Source: Thermococcus sp. AM4 (lineage in GTDB: Archaea > Methanobacteriota_B > Thermococci > Thermococcales > Thermococcaceae). From it: a stretch of 64,000 nucleotides of DNA. Location: assembly GCF_000151205.2 (NCBI RefSeq), contig NC_016051.1:992001-1056000 (forward strand), given 5' to 3'. Both the position numbers and the translations under genes were made by a program. Below, one piece after another: positions 17,930 through 26,689 of the stretch. The notes below the pieces were generated by a model, which was not told the DNA's origin, did no database searches, and saw only the letters and a list, made by a program, of their open reading frames with translations. How positions within the stretch are numbered: the stretch's first letter is position 1; each line of letters opens with the position of its first letter.

Positions 17930-19501
17930 ATGGAGAAAAAGCTAACGGATTTCATAGGCGCATCTCCCCAAGAGAGTAAGGCCCTAACCCGCGAGGAGCT
18001 TGAGAGAGTCCTCAAGAAGGCCGCGGATTTAATCAGGACGAGGGTCGATTACAAGTACATCCTTCTTCTGCTTTTCTTGAAGAGGTTAAGCGACGAGTGG
18101 GAGAAGGAGTTTGAGGAGTACGTTAAGAAGCTCATGGAGGAAGGGCTGGATAGAAAGACAGCCGAGGAACTTGCTCTTCAGGATAAAGAGGCATACACCA
18201 TCAACTACCCACCGGAATACCTCTGGAGAAAGCTCCGCGAGAAGGACATCGAGAACCTCCCCCAGAACCTCTCGCAGGCCCTCAAGAAGCTCGCCGAGCT
18301 CAACCCCAACCTGAGGGGTGTCGTTGACCGCTTTGACTTCATGGAGTTCATGCTCCACAGGGACAACGCCGAGATACTCAGACAGCTCTTCGAGTTATTC
18401 AGTGGGCTCAACCTAAAGAATGCTTCACCGGACGTTCTCGGTGATGCCTACGAGTGGATTCTCCGCTACTTTGCCCCCCAGAAGGCCAAGGAGGGGGAAG
18501 TGTATACCCCAAGGGAAGTCATAAGGCTTCTCGTTGAAATCCTCAAACCAAAGCCGGGTGAGGAAGTTTACGACCCGGCGATGGGCTCCGGGGGAATGCT
18601 GATAGGTGCCTACCTCTACGTCAAAGAGAAACATGGCGAGAGCGAGGCCAAAAAGCTCTTCCTCTACGGCCAGGAGGTCAACCCGACCACCTACGCCTTA
18701 GCGGAGATGAACATGATACTCCACGGCATCAAGTCGCCGAAGCTTGCCGTCGGCGATACACTTCTCAGGCCCGCCTTCAAGGAGGGAAACAAGCTCAAGC
18801 GCTTCAATGTGGTCATAGCAAACCCCCCGTGGAACCAGGACGGTTATGGGGAGGCCACACTCAAAAAGGCGGAGTTCAAGGAGGAGCGCTTCAAGTACGG
18901 CTATCCTCCCAACAACTCGGCCGACTGGGCGTGGATACAGCACATGCTCGCGAGCGCAAGAGATGAAGACGGCAGGGTCGGGATTGTAATAGACAATGGC
19001 GCGCTCTTCAGGGGAGGCGCTGAAAAGAAGATTAGAGCAAAGGTACTCAAGGACGACCTGGTTGAGGCGGTAATTTTGCTCCCCGAGAAGCTCTTCTACA
19101 ACACCGGCGCGCCAGGGGCCATAATGATATTCAACCGGAACAAGCCCACCGAGAGAAGGGGGAAGGTTCTCTTCATCAATGCATCCCAGGAATATGAAAA
19201 GCACCCGGAGGTAAGGAAGCTCAACCGCCTCGGTGATGGGCACATAAGGAAAATCGTTGATGCATTTGAGAAGTTCGAGGACGTTGAGGGCTTTGCGCGG
19301 GTCGTTGAGCTGGATGAGATAAAGGAGAACGACCACAACCTCAACGTCACCCTCTACGTTTTCCCGATGGAGGAAGAGGAAGAAATTGACGTTAAGGCCG
19401 AGTGGGAGGAGCTGAAGAGGATTAACGAGGAGCTCGCGAAGGTGGATGAGAAGATTGAGGGGTATTTGAAGGAGCTGGGGTATTGGGGGAAGGGTTATTA
19501 A
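17930..19501 (+). CDS. hsdM: Type I restriction-modification DNA methyltransferase, HsdM
   Basis: A 523-residue N6-adenine methyltransferase subunit. Residues 1-150 are the helical HsdM N-domain. The AdoMet motif DPAMGSGGMLIGA is at ~215 and the catalytic motif IANPPW near 298. The tail is an acidic Glu-rich helix. With HsdS it makes the modification enzyme and with HsdR the restriction complex. It opens the island; hsdS follows only after three small genes (19534-20527), an unusual break, since hsdM and hsdS normally touch. Confidence 0.95.
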   Translation: MEKKLTDFIGASPQESKALTREELERVLKKAADLIRTRVDYKYILLLLFLKRLSDEWEKEFEEYVKKLMEEGLDRKTAEELALQDKEAYTINYPPEYLWRKLREKDIENLPQNLSQALKKLAELNPNLRGVVDRFDFMEFMLHRDNAEILRQLFELFSGLNLKNASPDVLGDAYEWILRYFAPQKAKEGEVYTPREVIRLLVEILKPKPGEEVYDPAMGSGGMLIGAYLYVKEKHGESEAKKLFLYGQEVNPTTYALAEMNMILHGIKSPKLAVGDTLLRPAFKEGNKLKRFNVVIANPPWNQDGYGEATLKKAEFKEERFKYGYPPNNSADWAWIQHMLASARDEDGRVGIVIDNGALFRGGAEKKIRAKVLKDDLVEAVILLPEKLFYNTGAPGAIMIFNRNKPTERRGKVLFINASQEYEKHPEVRKLNRLGDGHIRKIVDAFEKFEDVEGFARVVELDEIKENDHNLNVTLYVFPMEEEEEIDVKAEWEELKRINEELAKVDEKIEGYLKELGYWGKGY

Positions 19502-19533
19502 ATCTCCCTGTCTAAATTAATTGGGTGAGGAAA

Positions 19534-19719
19534 ATGGCCACAAAAAAGAAGAAGTCCACAACCAAAAAGCCTAGGCGCATTCGTATTCACAACCCGCTCA
19601 CCGGAAAGTATTATCTCGCTGAGATTCAGCCCAACGGACAGTATAGAATAGTTGGGCTTTGGCACCCCCCAAAGAGGTCGAAGAAAAAGAAAAAATCCGT
19701 ATGGAGCCTCCTAGGTTGA
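19534..19719 (+). CDS. Small Lys-rich basic protein in the R-M island
   Basis: A 61-residue protein. Both ends are lysine-rich (MATKKKKSTTKKPRR and PKRSKKKKKS) and flank a short beta-like core, IRIHNPLTGKYYLAEIQPNG. It resembles no family I know. ATG 19534 follows GGTGAGG; an upstream GTG at 19525 overlaps that site. It lies 32 bases after hsdM and 6 bases before the PIN nuclease, so it could be that nuclease's antitoxin, or a nucleic-acid-binding accessory of the R-M system. Both ideas rest on position and charge alone. Confidence 0.6.
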   Translation: MATKKKKSTTKKPRRIRIHNPLTGKYYLAEIQPNGQYRIVGLWHPPKRSKKKKKSVWSLLG

Positions 19720-19725
19720 TGGGTC

Positions 19726-20352
19726 ATGATTAAGGTGTTCATAGACACGAACACCATAGTCCACTGGCTTGTTATCAAGAAAATGATGGAAGAGCACGGG
19801 AAGGAAATCTTGGAGAAATACAAAAGACTTAAGCAGTCTTACGAGTTCGTTGAGGCTGTTCTTTCGAGGAAGTTTAAAAATGCGGAGTTTTACATTTCCC
19901 GCTTAACCCTTGCGGAGATGACCAAAGCAATCCTTGATTTTATCGTGTACGAGAAGATGCGCCTCGACGGGGTTGCGGCCATTTATGGAATGAAGTACTT
20001 TAAGGACTATCTCTTAACAGATGAGGAATTCGACAGCTTTCTTGAAGGTATTATTGAGGCCTTCAATGTTCTTGAGAGCGAACTGAACGTGCTAGAGGAC
20101 GACCTCTCCGATTTGGAATACTACCCCTTCTTTGTGGCGAGGGCGGGACTGAGAACACAGGACGCAATTCTACTGACGACGGCCATACGGCATGAGATGG
20201 ACTACTTTGTTACAATGGATAGGGACTTTCATGATTTGCTGGAGGACAAGCGAATAAGGGACAGGACGAGGAAGTTCTTCGAGGAGAGAAATTTTAGAAT
20301 CGTGAGACCGGGAAGGATGATGCAGATTTTGGAGGAGATAACCAATGAGTGA
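19726..20352 (+). CDS. PIN-domain nuclease
   Basis: A 208-residue PIN-domain protein. The acidic residues expected for metal-dependent RNA cleavage are visible: D7 in VFIDTNT, Glu in LTLAEMTK near 63, Asp in RTQDAILLTTA near 146 and Asp in VTMDRDFHD near 165. It is longer than VapC toxins (~130 residues), with an extra helical middle (70-135). It stands between hsdM and hsdS, which is not a standard place for a PIN gene. It may be a toxin paired with the basic 61-residue protein, or an accessory nuclease of the island. Its last 8 bases overlap the next start. Confidence 0.75.
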   Translation: MIKVFIDTNTIVHWLVIKKMMEEHGKEILEKYKRLKQSYEFVEAVLSRKFKNAEFYISRLTLAEMTKAILDFIVYEKMRLDGVAAIYGMKYFKDYLLTDEEFDSFLEGIIEAFNVLESELNVLEDDLSDLEYYPFFVARAGLRTQDAILLTTAIRHEMDYFVTMDRDFHDLLEDKRIRDRTRKFFEERNFRIVRPGRMMQILEEITNE

Positions 20353-20527
20353 GGGGGCCGAGAAGATATTTGGGGCGTTTATGGTGTTTCTAGTTATAGC
20401 AATTGCCGGTTGGATGATGCTTGATATCGATATCGTGAGACCTCTGGGTGTTGGGTGGTTTATACTTGGGGTTTTGGTGGCCATAGGGATTTTAGTTGGG
20501 ATAATTGTAAAGTTACTCGGTGAGTAA
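20345..20527 (+). CDS. Small two-helix membrane protein
   Basis: A 60-residue protein with two hydrophobic helices, FGAFMVFLVIAIAGWMML and GWFILGVLVAIGILVGIIV, joined by a short polar turn. ATG 20345 overlaps the PIN gene by 8 bases, so translation is probably coupled. Size and topology recall holin-like or membrane-acting effector proteins found next to nucleases in defence loci, but no family was recognised and this comparison is inference. hsdS starts four bases after its stop. Confidence 0.6.
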   Translation: MSEGAEKIFGAFMVFLVIAIAGWMMLDIDIVRPLGVGWFILGVLVAIGILVGIIVKLLGE

Positions 20528-20530
20528 ACT

Positions 20531-21817
20531 ATGCAAGCTAAAACCAAACTCAAGAAAACTCCAATCGGCGAGATTCCTAGGGATTGGAAAGTTGTGAGAG
20601 TTCGGGAGATCTTTGATGTAAAGACCGGAACAACCCCCTCAACAAAACAAACAGACTATTGGGAAAATGGAGAGATGAATTGGATAACACCAACTGACCT
20701 GAGCAAACTAAATGGTAACATTTACATGGGAGATAGTGAGAGAAAAATCACTAAAAAAGCGCTTGAAGATTATAACCTAAGTCTCCTCCCTAAAGGCTCA
20801 CTTATATTGTCAACGAGAGCCCCCGTGGGTTATATTGCTGTTCTCACGGAAGAGGCCACATTTAATCAGGGATGCAAAGGACTTGTCCCCAAGGATCAGA
20901 ACAAAATCATTCCAGAATTTTATGCTTACTATTTTAAATTCAAGCGACAACACTTAGAAAGTTTAAGTGGTGGAAGTACCTTCAAGGAACTTGCTAAGGC
21001 CATGCTTGAACGCTTCTTAGTTCCTCTCCCACCCCGCCTCGAGCAGAAGAAAATCGCCGAAATCCTGAGAACTGTTGATGAAGCGATTGAAAAAACAGAC
21101 TTGGCAATCGAAAAGACGGAGCGCTTAAAGAAGGGCTTGATGCTGAGGCTTTTGACCAAAGGAATCAAGCACGAGAGGTTTAAGAAAACAGAGATTGGAG
21201 AGATTCCGGAGGAGTGGAGGGTTGTTAGGCTTGAGGAAATAACTAGAAGGATTAAAAGAGGACCATCCAAGAAAACAGATGACAACGAAACAGGTGTGGT
21301 TTATGTAACTTCTGACTATATAGACGACCATGGAAACCTTAATTTTGATAATCCTAAATACTTATCTTTAGAAAAGATCGACAGGCTAGACAAATATTTG
21401 TTAGAGGAAGGCGACTTGATTATCAATTGTGTAAACAGCCTTGAGAAAATTGGGAAAGTTGCCGTTTTTGAAGGTTATTCTAAAAAAGCGATTGTCGGTT
21501 TTAATAACTTTGCTTTGACACTTGTATCCACGGTTAATCCATATTATGTTAAATATTTCTTCCTATCCTACAAGGGCAAGGCTCTCATTAAATCAATATC
21601 TAAAGCAGCTGTACAACAAGTTAGTTTTAGCTCGAAGGACTTACTACGTTTAAAAATCCCCCTTCCTCCTCTCCCCGAACAAAAACAAATCGCCGAAATC
21701 CTCTCTACCGTTGATAAAAAGCTCGAACTCTTAAGGAAGCGCAGGGAGAAGCTTGAGCTGGTGAAACGCGGGCTGATGAAGGGTTTGCTGACGGGAAGGA
21801 GGAGGGTTAGCGTGTGA
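20531..21817 (+). CDS. hsdS: Type I restriction-modification specificity subunit, HsdS
   Basis: A 428-residue DNA-recognition subunit with two target-recognition domains (~20-170 and ~225-370). Each is followed by a conserved helix that fixes the spacing of the bipartite target: [20 protein letters not shown] near 172 and [20 protein letters not shown] near 378. The first domain opens with [14 protein letters not shown] and the second with [14 protein letters not shown], the usual internal repeat. Base composition is clearly richer in A+T than hsdM, as expected for a fast-exchanged specificity gene. The stop overlaps the GTG of the next gene. Confidence 0.93.
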
Positions 21818-22674
21818 TCCTTGATACATTTTCGTTTACTCCCATTGAGATTTCCCTAGCGATTGTAGCTTTTAGTGCGATTCTCTACTATTTTGGCCGG
21901 CTAATAGCCGACACGCATGTTGAACAAGCTGATAAACCTGTTCTTTACGTTGCAGGATTTATCTTCGTTGTGTTCTTTATCTTAATTCCTGGTGGAGTTG
22001 TGTACTGTCTCAAAAATTACCTCGCGTGGATACCTAACATCGCACTTGTGCTTCTTCAAATTGGGATGTTCTCAATGCTTTCTTGGGCATTGACGACTTA
22101 CGAATATTTTCTTAAGCACAGTCTTTTGGACGTGTTCCAAGAGAGATACCGAGAGAAACTAGAGGAAGTCAAAAAAGATAATACCCTTCTGGGGGACATT
22201 ATTGTAGTCTACGAGACAATGAAAAATAACAAAGATCCAGTTTCAACATTCTCAAGTATATTTGAGGCCAATAGAAAAATCTCTAGCAATTACGTCTTTT
22301 TAATGTTAGTATCAATAATTTCCATTTTTTCACTATATAGAGCAATCTCAGAGCGCTCTGTGGTCCTTATTGTAGCTACTTCAGTACTGGGGATATTTCT
22401 CTTCACAATGATGGCACTTGTTTATGGGTTCAGTACTGCATATTATCCCCCCGCAGTCATTCACCTAAGAAACGGACAGATTCTCCAAGGCAAGCTTCTA
22501 AAATTCGGGGATTTTGTATATTTACTTGATCCTGAGCAAAAAGTTAAATTTTTCATAAATAAGCAGGAGATTATGTATTTAGAGGAGAGCTTATTCAAAA
22601 ATCAATTCCCAATTTCTCAATCCGAGGACCAAGTTCGAATGAAAACTCTAGAAGAACACAATGAAAAAGTATAA
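21814..22674 (+). CDS. Membrane protein with Sm/SH3-like C-terminal segment
   Basis: A 286-residue protein not assigned to any family. It has about five hydrophobic segments: two or three before residue 95 and two near 165-210, separated by a charged helical stretch (~105-155, with [13 protein letters not shown]). The last ~75 residues are soluble and include [24 protein letters not shown] and a later [11 protein letters not shown], a strand order like small Sm/SH3 barrels. The GTG start overlaps hsdS by four bases, so it belongs to the same transcript. A+T-rich. A membrane-bound sensor or effector tied to the R-M complex is possible, but nothing beyond position supports it. Confidence 0.6.
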
Positions 22675-22697
22675 GTACTATTGTATGTAAAAACACG

Positions 22698-22874
22698 ATG
22701 TTGTGTGTGGAGGTTGGGGCGCTCTTAGCCCTAGCAGCTTCAGTAGACCTAGCGACTACAGTACTGCTAATACAGCTTGTAAAGGAGGTGATTGAGGTGG
22801 CCATGTGGCTATCTACATCACTACAGTGGGAGAAGGGCGGAGTGGCGGTCCCCCTCTGGGCTCGGAGGTACTAG
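22698..22874 (+). CDS. Possible small transmembrane ORF overlapping the folded element
   Basis: A 58-codon frame with one long hydrophobic stretch (GALLALAASVDLATTVLLIQ), ending inside the structured element. It lacks a ribosome site at the ATG. An internal ATG at 22803 has GAGGTG before it but would give only 23 residues. It could be a real membrane peptide, or chance reading of an RNA gene's flank. Confidence 0.25.
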   Translation: MLCVEVGALLALAASVDLATTVLLIQLVKEVIEVAMWLSTSLQWEKGGVAVPLWARRY

Positions 22875-22954
22875 GGGATCGTCATACAGGGCCAAGAGCG
22901 TCTTACCCTCGCTTCCCAGAGGGTGTGGGGGTTCGACTCCCCCACCTCCGCCCA
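22835..22954 (+). ncRNA. Candidate structured RNA or short inverted-repeat element
   Basis: A G+C-rich island of 120 bases in A+T-rich surroundings that folds as a three-way junction with perfect helices. Helix A pairs 22835-22842 (GGGCGGAG) with 22946-22953 (CTCCGCCC). Hairpin B, directly stacked on it, pairs 22925-22931 (GTGGGGG) with 22939-22945 around the loop TTCGACT, which equals a tRNA T-loop. Helix C pairs 22852-22860 (CCCTCTGGG) with 22915-22923. The layout of closing stem, T-arm and long second stem recalls tmRNA, a bacterial molecule not known in archaea; helix A plus B is 15 pairs, not the 12 of tRNA. The ends could equally be inverted repeats of a tiny mobile element. Strand is assumed. 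Confidence 0.5.
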
Positions 22955-23000
22955 CAGGAATTCAATATCAAGAAAAATCAGGTGAAGTTCTGACTTGCAT

Positions 23001-23074
23001 GAATATTTAAAACCAAGAGAGTTTATCCATAAACATCCAACCTCTCTAGTGCCCACGTTGTTTACGAATAAACA
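23001..23074 (+). promoter_or_regulatory. hsdR promoter with two inverted-repeat operators
   Basis: A TATA-like GAATATTTAA lies at 23001-23010. Downstream are two copies of GTTTA-N4-TAAAC, at 23021-23034 and 23060-23073; the second extends to TGTTTA-N4-TAAACA. Their centres are 39 bases apart. The second ends three bases before the AGGTG ribosome site of hsdR. Both are in the expected untranslated leader or around its start site, so a dimeric repressor or an RNA hairpin could hold down hsdR alone. Confidence 0.55.
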
Positions 23075-23084
23075 GGTGTCCCCT

Positions 23085-26036
23085 ATGCCCGCTCAAACCC
23101 CCGAATACCTCCAGTGTGAGAAGCCCATCATCGAGCGACTGGAATCGAAGGGCTGGACTTACCGGAGGGGCATTGAGGTTCTTGAAAACGAAAACGAGCC
23201 CCTCTTAATCTCAAGGCTGAAGCGTGCGATAGTGAGGATAAACAAAGTCAGTGAGAAGGAAGCGGAGGAGGCTATCAACCTTCTCAAGGCCGCTCCCTTC
23301 GGCGTTGAAGGTTCCCGCAGGGTTCTTGACTATCTCAAGAACGGCGTTCCCGTGAAGGATGAAGAAACCGGTGAGCCCAAGAGGCTGATGCTCATTGACT
23401 ATGAAAACCTCCAAAACAATGAGTTCCTCGTTGCCAACCAGGTCGGCTACCCGTTTAAAACTAAGATACCCGATGTAATCCTCTACGTCAACGGCATCCC
23501 CCTCGTTATAATAGAGTGCAAAAAGCTCGACGTGAGCTGGAAGAAGGCCTACGAGCAGATTAAGGGCTATGAAAAGGAGATGCCGGAGCTCTTCAAGTAC
23601 GTGCAGGTTGGCGTCGCGGTCGGGGACAAACCCGTCTATTTCCCCATAGTGCCGTGGCTGAGCAGTGTTCCGGTCTACGAATGGAAGTGGGGCAACTTCG
23701 ACCCCCTGGATGACCTCGTCGAACTTCTAAAGCCCGAAACCCTCCTCGACATCCTCCGCTACTTCACCTTCTACCGCGAGAGTGGCGGGGCTTTCACCAA
23801 GGTTCTGCCGAGGTACATGCAGTACAGGGCCGTTAGGGAGATAGTAAACCTCGCCGTTGGCTACGCAAGGGGAGAAACCGAAAGGAACCGGGGTCTAATC
23901 TGGCACTGGCAAGGTAGCGGGAAAACTCTGACGATGATATTCTCAGCCTACAAAATCAAGCGCCTGCTCGGCAACCCCACGATTTTCTTCATCGTTGACA
24001 GGAGGGAACTTGAGAGACAGCTGAGCGGCGAGCTTAAAGCCGTGGGGCTGAGCTTTGAAGTTATAGATTCAATCGAGAAGCTCAAGGAAGTCCTAACCCA
24101 CGCCGATGGAAAGAGGGGAATATTCATCACGCTCATCCATAAGTTCCGGCCAGAGGAACTTGAGGATGTCCTTACAGAGCTCAAAAAGAAGAGCCGTAGG
24201 CAGAGGACGATAATGAACCGCCGGGACGTCGTGGTTCTCATAGACGAAGGACACAGAACCCAGTACGGCGAGCTTGCTTCGACTATGCGCTCGATACTCA
24301 AGAGCGCGTCCTTCTTCGCCTTTACCGGAACCCCAATAGCAAAGAAAGGGCGCGACACCTACGCCACCTTCGGCTATAAGGACAGGCCCTACCTCGACAG
24401 GTACTTCATAACGCAGTCCATAGAGGATGGCTTTACTGTGAAGATAGCCTACCAGGCGAGGCTTGAGGAGGACGTTCATCTAAAGAGGGAGCTCCTTGAG
24501 GCGTTTCTCTCATCGAAGCTGGAGGAAATCCCAGAGGAGTACCGCGGAAGGGTAGAGGAGAAGCTCAAGAAGAGGCTCAACGCGATAAGGGTATTCCTGA
24601 AAAACCCGAAGAGGATCGAAATGATAGCCCAGGATATAGCAAGGCACTATAAGGAGAGCGTGGAGCCATTTAAAGCAATGGTCGTCGCCGTTGATAGGGA
24701 GTCCTGCGTCTTATACAAGCGCGCTCTCGACAAGTATTTGCCAAGGGGGTACACCGAGATCGTGATGACGTTCAACCGGGACGACAGTGAGGTTATCAAG
24801 GAATATCAAAAAGAGCTTGAAGAGCGTTTCCCGGGAAAGGACATGGCTGAAATCCGCGAGAGAATTCGTGAGGATTTCAGGAACAAGGAAATTCCAAAAA
24901 TCCTGATAGTTACCGATATGCTCCTCACGGGCTTCGACGCACCAATCCTCCAGACAATGTATCTGGACCAGCCCCTCAAGGAGCACCGGCTTCTTCAGGC
25001 GATAGCGAGGACCAACAGGCCCTTCATCAAGAACGGTGAGAACATCAAGCCCTTCGGCCTCGTTATAGATTACGTGGGCATATTCAAGGAGTTGAAGAGA
25101 GCGCTGGAAATCTATGATGAAGTTGATATCGAAGGGGCCGCTTACAGCGTCGAAGAGATAAAGGAAGAGCTCAGGAAAAAGATCGCCAAGGCTATGGGAT
25201 ACTTTGATGGTCTTGAGCCGGGAAGAGATAGGGAGACCATAATGAACGCAGTCGAGACACTGTTTAGAAACAACAAGGGCGAAGAGTTCCAGAGGCTGTA
25301 CAGGGAGATAAGGCACCACTACAAGCTCCTCATGGAGGACAGAGATGAGTTCAGGGAGGCCTTCAAATGGCTCACGGAGGTCTATTATGCATACAGAGCG
25401 AAGGTTGATGGCGTTCCGCCGGAAGTCGAACTCAAAGCCGACGAATTCTTCAGGGAGGCTCTCAAGTTCATACACGAGACAGTGGACATAGAGGAGATAA
25501 AGACGGACTTTCCAATAATGGAACTTGACGAGGAGTTCCTCAAGAAAGTAATGAGGGAAAGGGATAAGCGGAAGGCATTTACTAACCTCCTATTCTCGGT
25601 CAGACACTACGTAAACACTCACAAGGGACCTTTAACGGAGGACTTGGTTGAGCAGGTAGAGAGGATAATCGAAGCCTGGAGACATAAAAAGGAAGAAATC
25701 GAGAAGCTCTATGAGGAGCTCCTTGGAATAGCAGGGGAAATAGAAAAGCGCTCGCAGGAGCAGAGAAAGCTCGGTTTGAACGAGCTCGAATACGCCATTC
25801 TGATGGTGCTCAAGAAGCACGTAAAGACCAATACTAACGAGCTGATCAAAGGGATCAGAAAGTTGCTCAAGGAGACCGAGGGGCTTAGGTTCCCCCGTTG
25901 GACAGAGAAAACTGAGGTCGTCAGCGAAGTCTCGCGGAAAATTATGCTCTTCATTGTAAGGGAATATAAGGAGGAATGCGACGACATCATCAAGACGCGT
26001 AACGAGCTCCTAGAGGTGCTCAAAAGGTGGGGATAG
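23085..26036 (+). CDS. hsdR: Type I restriction enzyme endonuclease/translocase subunit, HsdR
   Basis: A 983-residue motor-nuclease. The PD-(D/E)xK nuclease motif is at ~130-147 (PDVILYVNG...IIECKK). The SF2 translocase follows, with Walker A WQGSGKTLT near 275, DEAD-like LIDEGHR near 386, FTGTPI near 410, LIVTDMLLTGFDAP and the arginine motif LLQAIARTNRP. The C-terminal ~300 residues are helical and bind HsdM. ATG 23085 follows AGGTG; a longer frame from 22995 would translate the operator region and is less likely. It has its own promoter, separate from hsdM and hsdS. Confidence 0.93.
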   Translation: MPAQTPEYLQCEKPIIERLESKGWTYRRGIEVLENENEPLLISRLKRAIVRINKVSEKEAEEAINLLKAAPFGVEGSRRVLDYLKNGVPVKDEETGEPKRLMLIDYENLQNNEFLVANQVGYPFKTKIPDVILYVNGIPLVIIECKKLDVSWKKAYEQIKGYEKEMPELFKYVQVGVAVGDKPVYFPIVPWLSSVPVYEWKWGNFDPLDDLVELLKPETLLDILRYFTFYRESGGAFTKVLPRYMQYRAVREIVNLAVGYARGETERNRGLIWHWQGSGKTLTMIFSAYKIKRLLGNPTIFFIVDRRELERQLSGELKAVGLSFEVIDSIEKLKEVLTHADGKRGIFITLIHKFRPEELEDVLTELKKKSRRQRTIMNRRDVVVLIDEGHRTQYGELASTMRSILKSASFFAFTGTPIAKKGRDTYATFGYKDRPYLDRYFITQSIEDGFTVKIAYQARLEEDVHLKRELLEAFLSSKLEEIPEEYRGRVEEKLKKRLNAIRVFLKNPKRIEMIAQDIARHYKESVEPFKAMVVAVDRESCVLYKRALDKYLPRGYTEIVMTFNRDDSEVIKEYQKELEERFPGKDMAEIRERIREDFRNKEIPKILIVTDMLLTGFDAPILQTMYLDQPLKEHRLLQAIARTNRPFIKNGENIKPFGLVIDYVGIFKELKRALEIYDEVDIEGAAYSVEEIKEELRKKIAKAMGYFDGLEPGRDRETIMNAVETLFRNNKGEEFQRLYREIRHHYKLLMEDRDEFREAFKWLTEVYYAYRAKVDGVPPEVELKADEFFREALKFIHETVDIEEIKTDFPIMELDEEFLKKVMRERDKRKAFTNLLFSVRHYVNTHKGPLTEDLVEQVERIIEAWRHKKEEIEKLYEELLGIAGEIEKRSQEQRKLGLNELEYAILMVLKKHVKTNTNELIKGIRKLLKETEGLRFPRWTEKTEVVSEVSRKIMLFIVREYKEECDDIIKTRNELLEVLKRWG

Positions 26037-26689
26037 AGTACCGCGTAATTCTGAGGGACGTTAAGTATCCCCGCATCGAGATAAGCTCCCTGGGGGAGGT
26101 TAAGGTAATAGTCCCACCAAATGCAGACGCCGAGGATCTGGTGAAGAGAAAGAAGGAGTGGATAGAGAAGAAGCTAAGGGAAATCGAAGAAGCCAAGATG
26201 AAGTTTCTCCCGCTTTCCAATAAGCTCCTACTCGACGGTGAGTTCTACGAACTCATCGAGTCAGAGGAGTTTGGGGTTAATTCAAAGTTTCACGTGGTTC
26301 TCCTGCCCAAGGACGATTTGGGAATGCTAAAAAGATGGCTGAAGAGTCAGCTGAGAGAAGAGTTGGAATTTAAGGTGAGACTCTTCTCATCGGTCTTTGG
26401 GGTAAAGTACAGAAAAATATACATCCGCTTTCAGAAGACGAAGTGGGCAAGCTGTTCTGAGAAAGGAAATCTAAGCTTTAACCTAATGCTTATGGCGCTG
26501 CCAGAGGAACTCAGGGACTACATCATAATACACGAGGTGGCCCACCTCAAGTTCCAAAAGCACTCTCGCGCGTTTTGGGAACTCGTAAGGCAGTATTACC
26601 CCGACTACAAACATGCCCAGAGAGAACTGAGAGAGTACTGGCTTGCGCTCCAGTATAATAAAATCTGGAATAGACTGAGGGAAATTTAG
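26027..26689 (+). CDS. YgjP-like zinc metallopeptidase
   Basis: A 220-residue YgjP/DUF45-type protein. The zinc motif HEVAH at ~169-173 lies in IIHEVAHLKFQKHS, with a third ligand in that second histidine region; the preceding TKWASCSEKGNLSFN is typical of the family. GTG 26027 lies inside the end of hsdR (10-base overlap), so it is translated with it. YgjP genes commonly follow type I R-M genes in bacteria and archaea; they are thought to process or degrade a protein of the complex, which is not proven. Confidence 0.88.
   Translation: MGIEYRVILRDVKYPRIEISSLGEVKVIVPPNADAEDLVKRKKEWIEKKLREIEEAKMKFLPLSNKLLLDGEFYELIESEEFGVNSKFHVVLLPKDDLGMLKRWLKSQLREELEFKVRLFSSVFGVKYRKIYIRFQKTKWASCSEKGNLSFNLMLMALPEELRDYIIIHEVAHLKFQKHSRAFWELVRQYYPDYKHAQRELREYWLALQYNKIWNRLREI

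Follow-up and report, generated by a model that had tools for sequence, protein, structure and literature searches.

A structured RNA family with a tRNA-type T-arm in type I restriction-modification loci of Thermococcaceae, possibly a self-locked mRNA for a small membrane peptide

The window, a 64,000-nucleotide stretch of Thermococcus sp. AM4 (NC_016051.1, positions 992,001 to 1,056,000), contains a type I restriction-modification (R-M) locus. A small structured RNA unit lies between the genes for the specificity and restriction subunits. The protein-coding genes around it, in positions of the window, are as follows.

17930-19501, + strand: hsdM, type I methyltransferase (Pfam N6_Mtase, 1.3e-113)
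20531-21817, + strand: hsdS, type I specificity subunit (Pfam Methylase_S, 3.1e-63)
21814-22674, + strand: gene for a 286-aa membrane protein, which adjoins the RNA in four of the eleven loci that carry it
23085-26036, + strand: hsdR, type I restriction subunit (HSDR_N, 2.6e-39; SWI2_SNF2, 3.7e-59); ATG at 23085, TTG at 22995 in the list of open reading frames

The RNA unit itself contains a promoter element, a small open reading frame and several helices, some of which are mutually exclusive.

22664-22677, + strand: BRE/TATA promoter element of the RNA, AAAAAGTATAAGTA
22695-22956, + strand: inferred RNA, ~262 nt, with ends placed from the TATA spacing and the limit of conservation
22707-22874, + strand: small ORF, 55 codons from GTG (58 from the ATG at 22698), for a predicted single-helix hydrophobic peptide
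22707-22714, + strand: Acc 5' strand, GUGGAGGU, containing the GTG start and pairing with 22944-22951
22718-22732 / 22888-22902, + strand: H0, a 15-bp long-range helix whose 5' strand is approximately codons 4 to 9 of the ORF
22835-22842 / 22946-22953, + strand: X, the closing stem, GGGCGGAG / CTCCGCCC, 8 bp, perfect
22843-22853 / 22874-22884, + strand: H1 hairpin, 11 bp with a 20-nt loop
22852-22860 / 22915-22923, + strand: long stem of the preliminary description, CCCTCTGGG / CCCAGAGGG, 9 bp, perfect, an alternative to H1 and V
22905-22924, + strand: V hairpin (ACCCTC ... GAGGGT), directly 5' of the T-arm, from the predicted fold
22925-22931 / 22939-22945, + strand: T-arm, GTGGGGG / loop TTCGACT / CCCCCAC, 7 bp, perfect
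22944-22953, + strand: 3' strand, ACCTCCGCCC, with possible partners in Acc (22707-22714), X (22835-22842) and the H1 loop (22863-22869)

A preliminary description of this DNA had placed a three-way-junction element at 22835-22954, with three perfect helices of 8, 7 and 9 bp and the loop TTCGACT. All of these are present where it put them. The same three-way layout was found in 0 of 20,000 dinucleotide-preserving shuffles of the 120 bases, and the minimum free energy of the element, -68.1 kcal/mol, corresponds to z = -4.1 on the + strand versus z = -2.0 on the - strand. The element is therefore real, but homology and the promoter indicate that it is only the 3' half of a unit that extends over approximately 22695-22956; a nucleotide search aligns 22706-22959 with the homologues G083 and G084. 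In the subfamily of the window, the 9-bp long stem overlaps the 11-bp H1, whose covariation is much stronger, and it also competes with the V hairpin. It is thus one among several alternative pairings there. Its counterpart in the second subfamily is a clean nested stem (GCCCUCCU/AGGAGGGC).

The RNA has 11 known members, including that of the window. Homologues in Thermococcales, which the preliminary description had proposed to look for, were reached by three routes. A nucleotide search of 94 Thermococcaceae genomes found G039 (93% identity), G083 and G084 (85%, from another genus) and partial matches in G016 and G062; together with G000 these form subfamily A. A covariance model, R1, recovered all six members of subfamily A and led to G023 and G057. 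Inspection of the DNA 5' of hsdR orthologues added G063, G013 and G002, which with G023 and G057 make up subfamily B. A second model, R2, run against 115 genomes of the phylum, found only the five subfamily B members plus tRNA-type cross-hits; it recovers five of the six subfamily A members at rough E-values of ~0.001-0.006 and G062 at 0.09. The weak R1 and R2 matches that we examined in other genomes are tRNA-Leu, tRNA-Phe or an intron-containing tRNA-like gene. Pattern matches in G014, G017, G023 (at 2213304) and G055 are due to chance, as are matches of viral contigs to the 3'-end pattern, which have no T-arm upstream. A T-arm pattern with two mismatches allowed was swamped by ordinary tRNAs.

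Searching the whole window with Rfam 15 gave no family at gathering threshold except the C/D box RNA sR10 (RF01149; 40000-40053, 75.9 bits), and we found nothing in open-licence papers on an RNA in archaeal R-M loci. Even without a function, this is a covariation-supported structured RNA family new to Rfam, with a tRNA-type T-arm and a 3' strand that has alternative partners.

The promoter and the reading frame are constant features of the family. A TATA-like box (e.g., AAAAGTATAAGTA, AAAGGTATAAATA or AAATTTAAATATA) lies ~36-45 nt 5' of the ORF GTG in all 11 homologues, and the frame is open from the corresponding GTG in each of them, with 47-57 codons and a hydrophobic product. The four close members of subfamily A show no indels in the ORF and a dN/dS of ~0.5, which is only mildly below 1 and includes some close pairs with too few changes to tell. 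AlphaFold models the peptide as one helix (residues 2-46, mean pLDDT 80). No Pfam, NCBIfam or PADLOC family matched it. The predicted product is hydrophobic and probably a membrane peptide. In the G063 copy (L155 1515-1530), an extra C in the X strand shifts the frame near the end of the ORF and alters the C-terminus of the peptide; the helices of that RNA are almost intact despite the extra base.

Comparison of the homologous sequences supports the fold through covariation in H0 and H1, the kind of compensatory change that had been proposed as a check on the element. Of the circumstances that were to refute it, a lack of homologues and a lack of conserved pairing among relatives do not apply. 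In H0, 8 of the 15 pairs change on both sides, 92% of cells are paired even on an alignment made without regard to structure (on which G062 is one base out of register), and none of 500 shuffles, nor any slid register, reached the covariation score. Subfamily B retains H0, again with changes in both strands, as in GGGUUUCCUCCUCU/GGAGGGGGAAACCC versus GGGCCUCCUGCUCC/GGAGAAGGAGGCCC. H1 occurs with three unrelated stem sequences, around a loop of 19-20 nt, across six homologues; 6 of its 11 pairs change on both sides, and neither 500 shuffles nor any slid register come near its score. These covariation results come from few effective independent lineages, three in subfamily A and two in B, and the G+C-rich strands of the RNA pair easily by chance. 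The V stem of G016 and G062 has a different sequence (AGUCC/GGACU) in the same place. The 4-5-bp G-C core of the T-arm is present in all 11 homologues. X, H2 and the T-arm are too conserved to show any covariation in subfamily B alone. A local hairpin in the middle segment of subfamily A was ruled out by full-length folding and covariation; that segment is the 3' strand of H0.

The 3' end of the RNA could pair in more than one way. The 3' strand is nearly invariant in subfamily A, and its partner in the H1 loop, opposite ACCUCCGCCC, is CGGAGGU. In the predicted free-energy optimum of the four closest members it pairs with Acc, which at 85 C is 3.5-7.4 kcal/mol more stable than a fold forced to use X, and this minimum-energy fold closes the start codon together with codons 4-9. 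G016 and G062 have only an imperfect version of the Acc pairing, and subfamily B lacks it. X is kept in subfamily B with changed strands (GUGGGGGCG/CGCCCCCAC in G057 and UGGGGGGCG/CGCCCCCCA in G013).

Ten of the 11 members of the RNA family lie 5' of hsdR and 3' of hsdS in a type I R-M locus, either next to hsdS or separated from it by the gene for a membrane protein of 271-286 aa. The eleventh, in G039, is in the remnant of such a locus, from which hsdM, hsdS and hsdR are gone and in which the RNA is intact; the membrane protein gene and the RNA sit there between an R-M-flanking oxidoreductase gene and a tRNA-Ser gene (L079 7988-12000). The RNA can thus persist without its R-M system. Between the RNA and hsdR there is no cargo in G016, a ~400-aa or other protein in G062 and subfamily B, and a PIN toxin pair in G083 and G084. 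Orthologous R-M loci without the RNA (G033, G068, G060, G020, G066, G086 and L028) can have other genes in the interval: a PIN/AF2212-like pair in G086, in G033 and G020 a nucleotidyltransferase whose partner looks HEPN-like on inspection by eye, and small membrane proteins in some. Because VapBC or nucleotidyltransferase pairs occupy the same place in sibling loci, we consider the hsdS-hsdR interval a slot for toxin-antitoxin-like cargo.

Cargo also varies between loci in the hsdM-hsdS interval (L028 1910-4450; window 19525-20527; L148 2861-5783, for the two intervals together), and includes PIN proteins, small membrane proteins, a pentapeptide-repeat/ion-channel-like protein and large unknown proteins. 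The R-M locus looks like a platform for defense cargo.

We tentatively favor the reading that the RNA is a hok-like, self-locked mRNA for a small and probably toxic membrane peptide that guards the R-M system, and we hold this to be possible rather than probable. As cargo between hsdS and hsdR, the RNA would be transcribed from its own promoter and would encode the hydrophobic peptide of 47-57 residues. Its 3' domain, the T-arm hairpin and the strand ACCUCCGCCC, would fold back onto the 5' end. H0 would cover the first codons of the ORF, and in the subfamily of the window the 3' end would also pair with the GUG start codon and with GGAGGU, a purine-rich stretch. With its start region paired to the 3' domain, the message would therefore begin closed. 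Opening could occur by trimming of the 3' end, by strand exchange in which the 3' strand moves to X, or by loss of a binding factor, and the opened message would then release the peptide, as in the bacterial hok mRNA. The place of the RNA in the R-M locus suggests that it might act as a guard, comparable to PrrC in EcoprrI, once the R-M system has been disabled or lost. We favor a toxic-peptide guard because of the predicted closure of the start, the small hydrophobic peptide, the separate promoter, the toxin-antitoxin type of slot and the linkage to R-M genes.

Several observations argue against this reading of the RNA as a self-locked toxin mRNA. Inspection by eye recognized no antisense antitoxin gene, nothing but the location points directly to a guard role, and G039 retains an intact RNA although hsdM, hsdS and hsdR are gone. 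The pairing of the extreme 5' and 3' ends does not extend, in perfect form, beyond the closest members of subfamily A. The hydrophobic LLL stretch of the peptide overlaps H0, and RNA pairing could explain part of the peptide's conservation. The one-base insertion in G063, with its changed peptide C-terminus, also counts against the reading.

Bacteria have several systems with which the RNA can be compared. Translation of hok is locked by mRNA structure through its 3' end, and processing of that end triggers refolding (PMC4147584); the mRNAs of type I toxins are often locked by structure (PMC4147584). Like these, the RNA has a short hydrophobic ORF (one predicted membrane helix, at all 11 loci) in a highly structured transcript. 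By the predicted fold, its start region is hidden by structure, through H0 in both subfamilies and with the start codon itself paired in subfamily A, in which the 5' end pairs with the 3' end. It differs from hok in its archaeal host, its R-M linkage, the putative nature of its toxicity, the lack of a recognized antisense RNA and its 3' domain, which has a T-arm and the near-invariant ACCUCCGCCC strand. Type I systems were reported in 2025 to be known so far only in Proteobacteria, Firmicutes and Tenericutes (PMC12390103). If our reading is right, self-locked small-toxin mRNAs extend to archaea, where we found none described in the searched literature.

The position of the RNA has a parallel in the anticodon nuclease gene prrC of E. 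coli, which lies inside the type IC EcoprrI operon (PMC3874165). In both cases an extra module, toxic in PrrC and putatively so here, lies within type I R-M genes. However, the PrrC module is a protein, a nuclease that the R-M enzyme keeps silent, whereas the cargo here is an RNA with a tiny ORF. If the guard role is right, R-M systems of hyperthermophilic archaea carry an RNA-locked small-protein module where bacteria keep PrrC-like guards. Type III toxin-antitoxin systems (ToxIN) share with it a pseudoknot-prone structured RNA in a toxin-antitoxin-like position, but our RNA has no repeats and no ToxN-type nuclease adjoins it.

The preliminary description had likened the element to a tmRNA or a rebuilt tRNA. 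The likeness holds at the level of layout: as in tmRNA (RF00023), the ends are paired, the T-arm is beside the closing stem, and the RNA has both a long helix and an internal reading frame. Membership in either family is not borne out by the tests that we made. The match to the Rfam tmRNA model is confined to the 17-nt T-arm and scores 13.5 bits, below the cutoff of 47, and ARAGORN calls a tRNA-Ser(aga) gene only in the window and in the 93% identical G039. Unlike in tmRNA, the ORF starts at the 5' end rather than inside, and neither an acceptor-type end pairing nor a 3' CCA is found across the family. A 2025 survey stated that tmRNA had not previously been known from any archaeon, and suspected that its own archaeal hits were due to misbinning (PMC11915505).

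A tRNA- or tmRNA-like RNA could nonetheless act in trans on the ribosome, a tRNA enzyme or a defense protein, with an ORF that is incidental or tag-like. The T-arm stacks directly on the closing-stem strand, and the paired ends, H0, the V hairpin and the T-arm resemble the tRNA/tmRNA junction. In most of subfamily A, a CCA is part of the 3' end (CCCACA). The covariance models also pick up tRNA genes, and the dN/dS of the ORF is only ~0.5. We regard this explanation as rather unlikely: the genome has no match to SmpB (PF01668), which was found in 10 of 14 control genomes, the RNA has no conserved anticodon, the 3' CCA is lost in subfamily B (CACGA, CCAA or CCGA), and the frame stays open in every member. 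A similarly modest chance attaches to a combination of the two ideas, in which a tRNA/tmRNA-shaped RNA carrying a membrane-toxin ORF would be closed as long as its 3' end sits on the start codon and would open, by moving that end to X, upon attack on a type I R-M system. Such an RNA would represent a new class in archaea, a suicide guard of restriction made of RNA and, within the literature searched, the first archaeal hok-like system.

Two further explanations dispense with a toxin, and we think each of them doubtful. The RNA might be a trans-acting regulatory sRNA that limits expression of hsdR or hsdS so that methylation precedes restriction. Consistent with this, it is always within the hsdS-hsdR interval of intact loci and, except for the G039 remnant, is absent from genomes without this type of R-M system. 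Yet other genes separate it from hsdR in G083, G084, G062, G023, G057, G063, G013 and G002, and the RNA is therefore no simple hsdR leader; several orthologous loci do without it, and hsdR comes with a TATA-like box and palindromes of its own. Alternatively, the 3' structure might serve only the stability or timing of decay of an mRNA for an ordinary small membrane protein, such as a membrane anchor of the R-M system. The cargo of the locus is indeed rich in membrane proteins (20345-20527 and 21814-22674 in the window; 400-aa proteins downstream in subfamily B), but covering the start of the ORF with H0 exceeds what stability needs.

The preliminary description had also suggested a tRNA-derived attachment site or the ends of a very small mobile element. 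The former could arise when an integrase copies the 3' end of a tRNA, and the latter would be the tip of a transposable element. The tRNA-type T-arm, the mobility of R-M islands and the patchy distribution of the RNA would fit such an origin. This reading is very improbable and close to refuted. The element is single-copy in the 2.09-Mb genome, where a search for a duplicate of its 3' end or a tRNA 3' end like it gave nothing beyond 14-22-nt matches due to chance. Neither the 94 Thermococcaceae genomes nor the 115 genomes of the phylum showed a copy outside R-M loci or the remnant, and searches of plasmids, phages and viral contigs found no homologue. An attachment site would not be expected to show compensatory changes in its internal helices, and the RNA stays within the hsdS-hsdR interval while the adjoining cargo varies.

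Other parts of the locus deserve mention. The 286-aa protein and its relatives (L079 10096-10956; L080 4323-5138; L081 9143-9985) share a conserved C-terminal stretch that has a weak but repeated match to Hfq/Sm (Pfam Hfq, E 0.04-0.08, below the cutoff); a PDB profile match to Hfq has an E-value of 0.42. The structural model of the 286-aa protein, of low confidence (pLDDT 47) and too poor for a fold search, has a five-strand C-terminal domain. The protein could possibly have a putative membrane-anchored, Sm-like RNA-binding domain.

Two palindromes precede hsdR, GTTTATCCATAAAC at 23021-23034 and GTTTACGAATAAAC at 23060-23073, with similar pairs in L027 and L028. They are likely candidates for the operator of a restriction regulator. 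L028 itself (JAADCS010000131.1) is labelled Thermotogota and has an R-M locus whose hsdR is 90% identical to that of the window; it is probably a misbinned Thermococcus contig or a recent transfer. A gene for a YgjP-like metallopeptidase (26027-26689) overlaps the end of hsdR and accompanies it in the orthologous loci that we read through, and is apparently a constant part of this type of R-M system.
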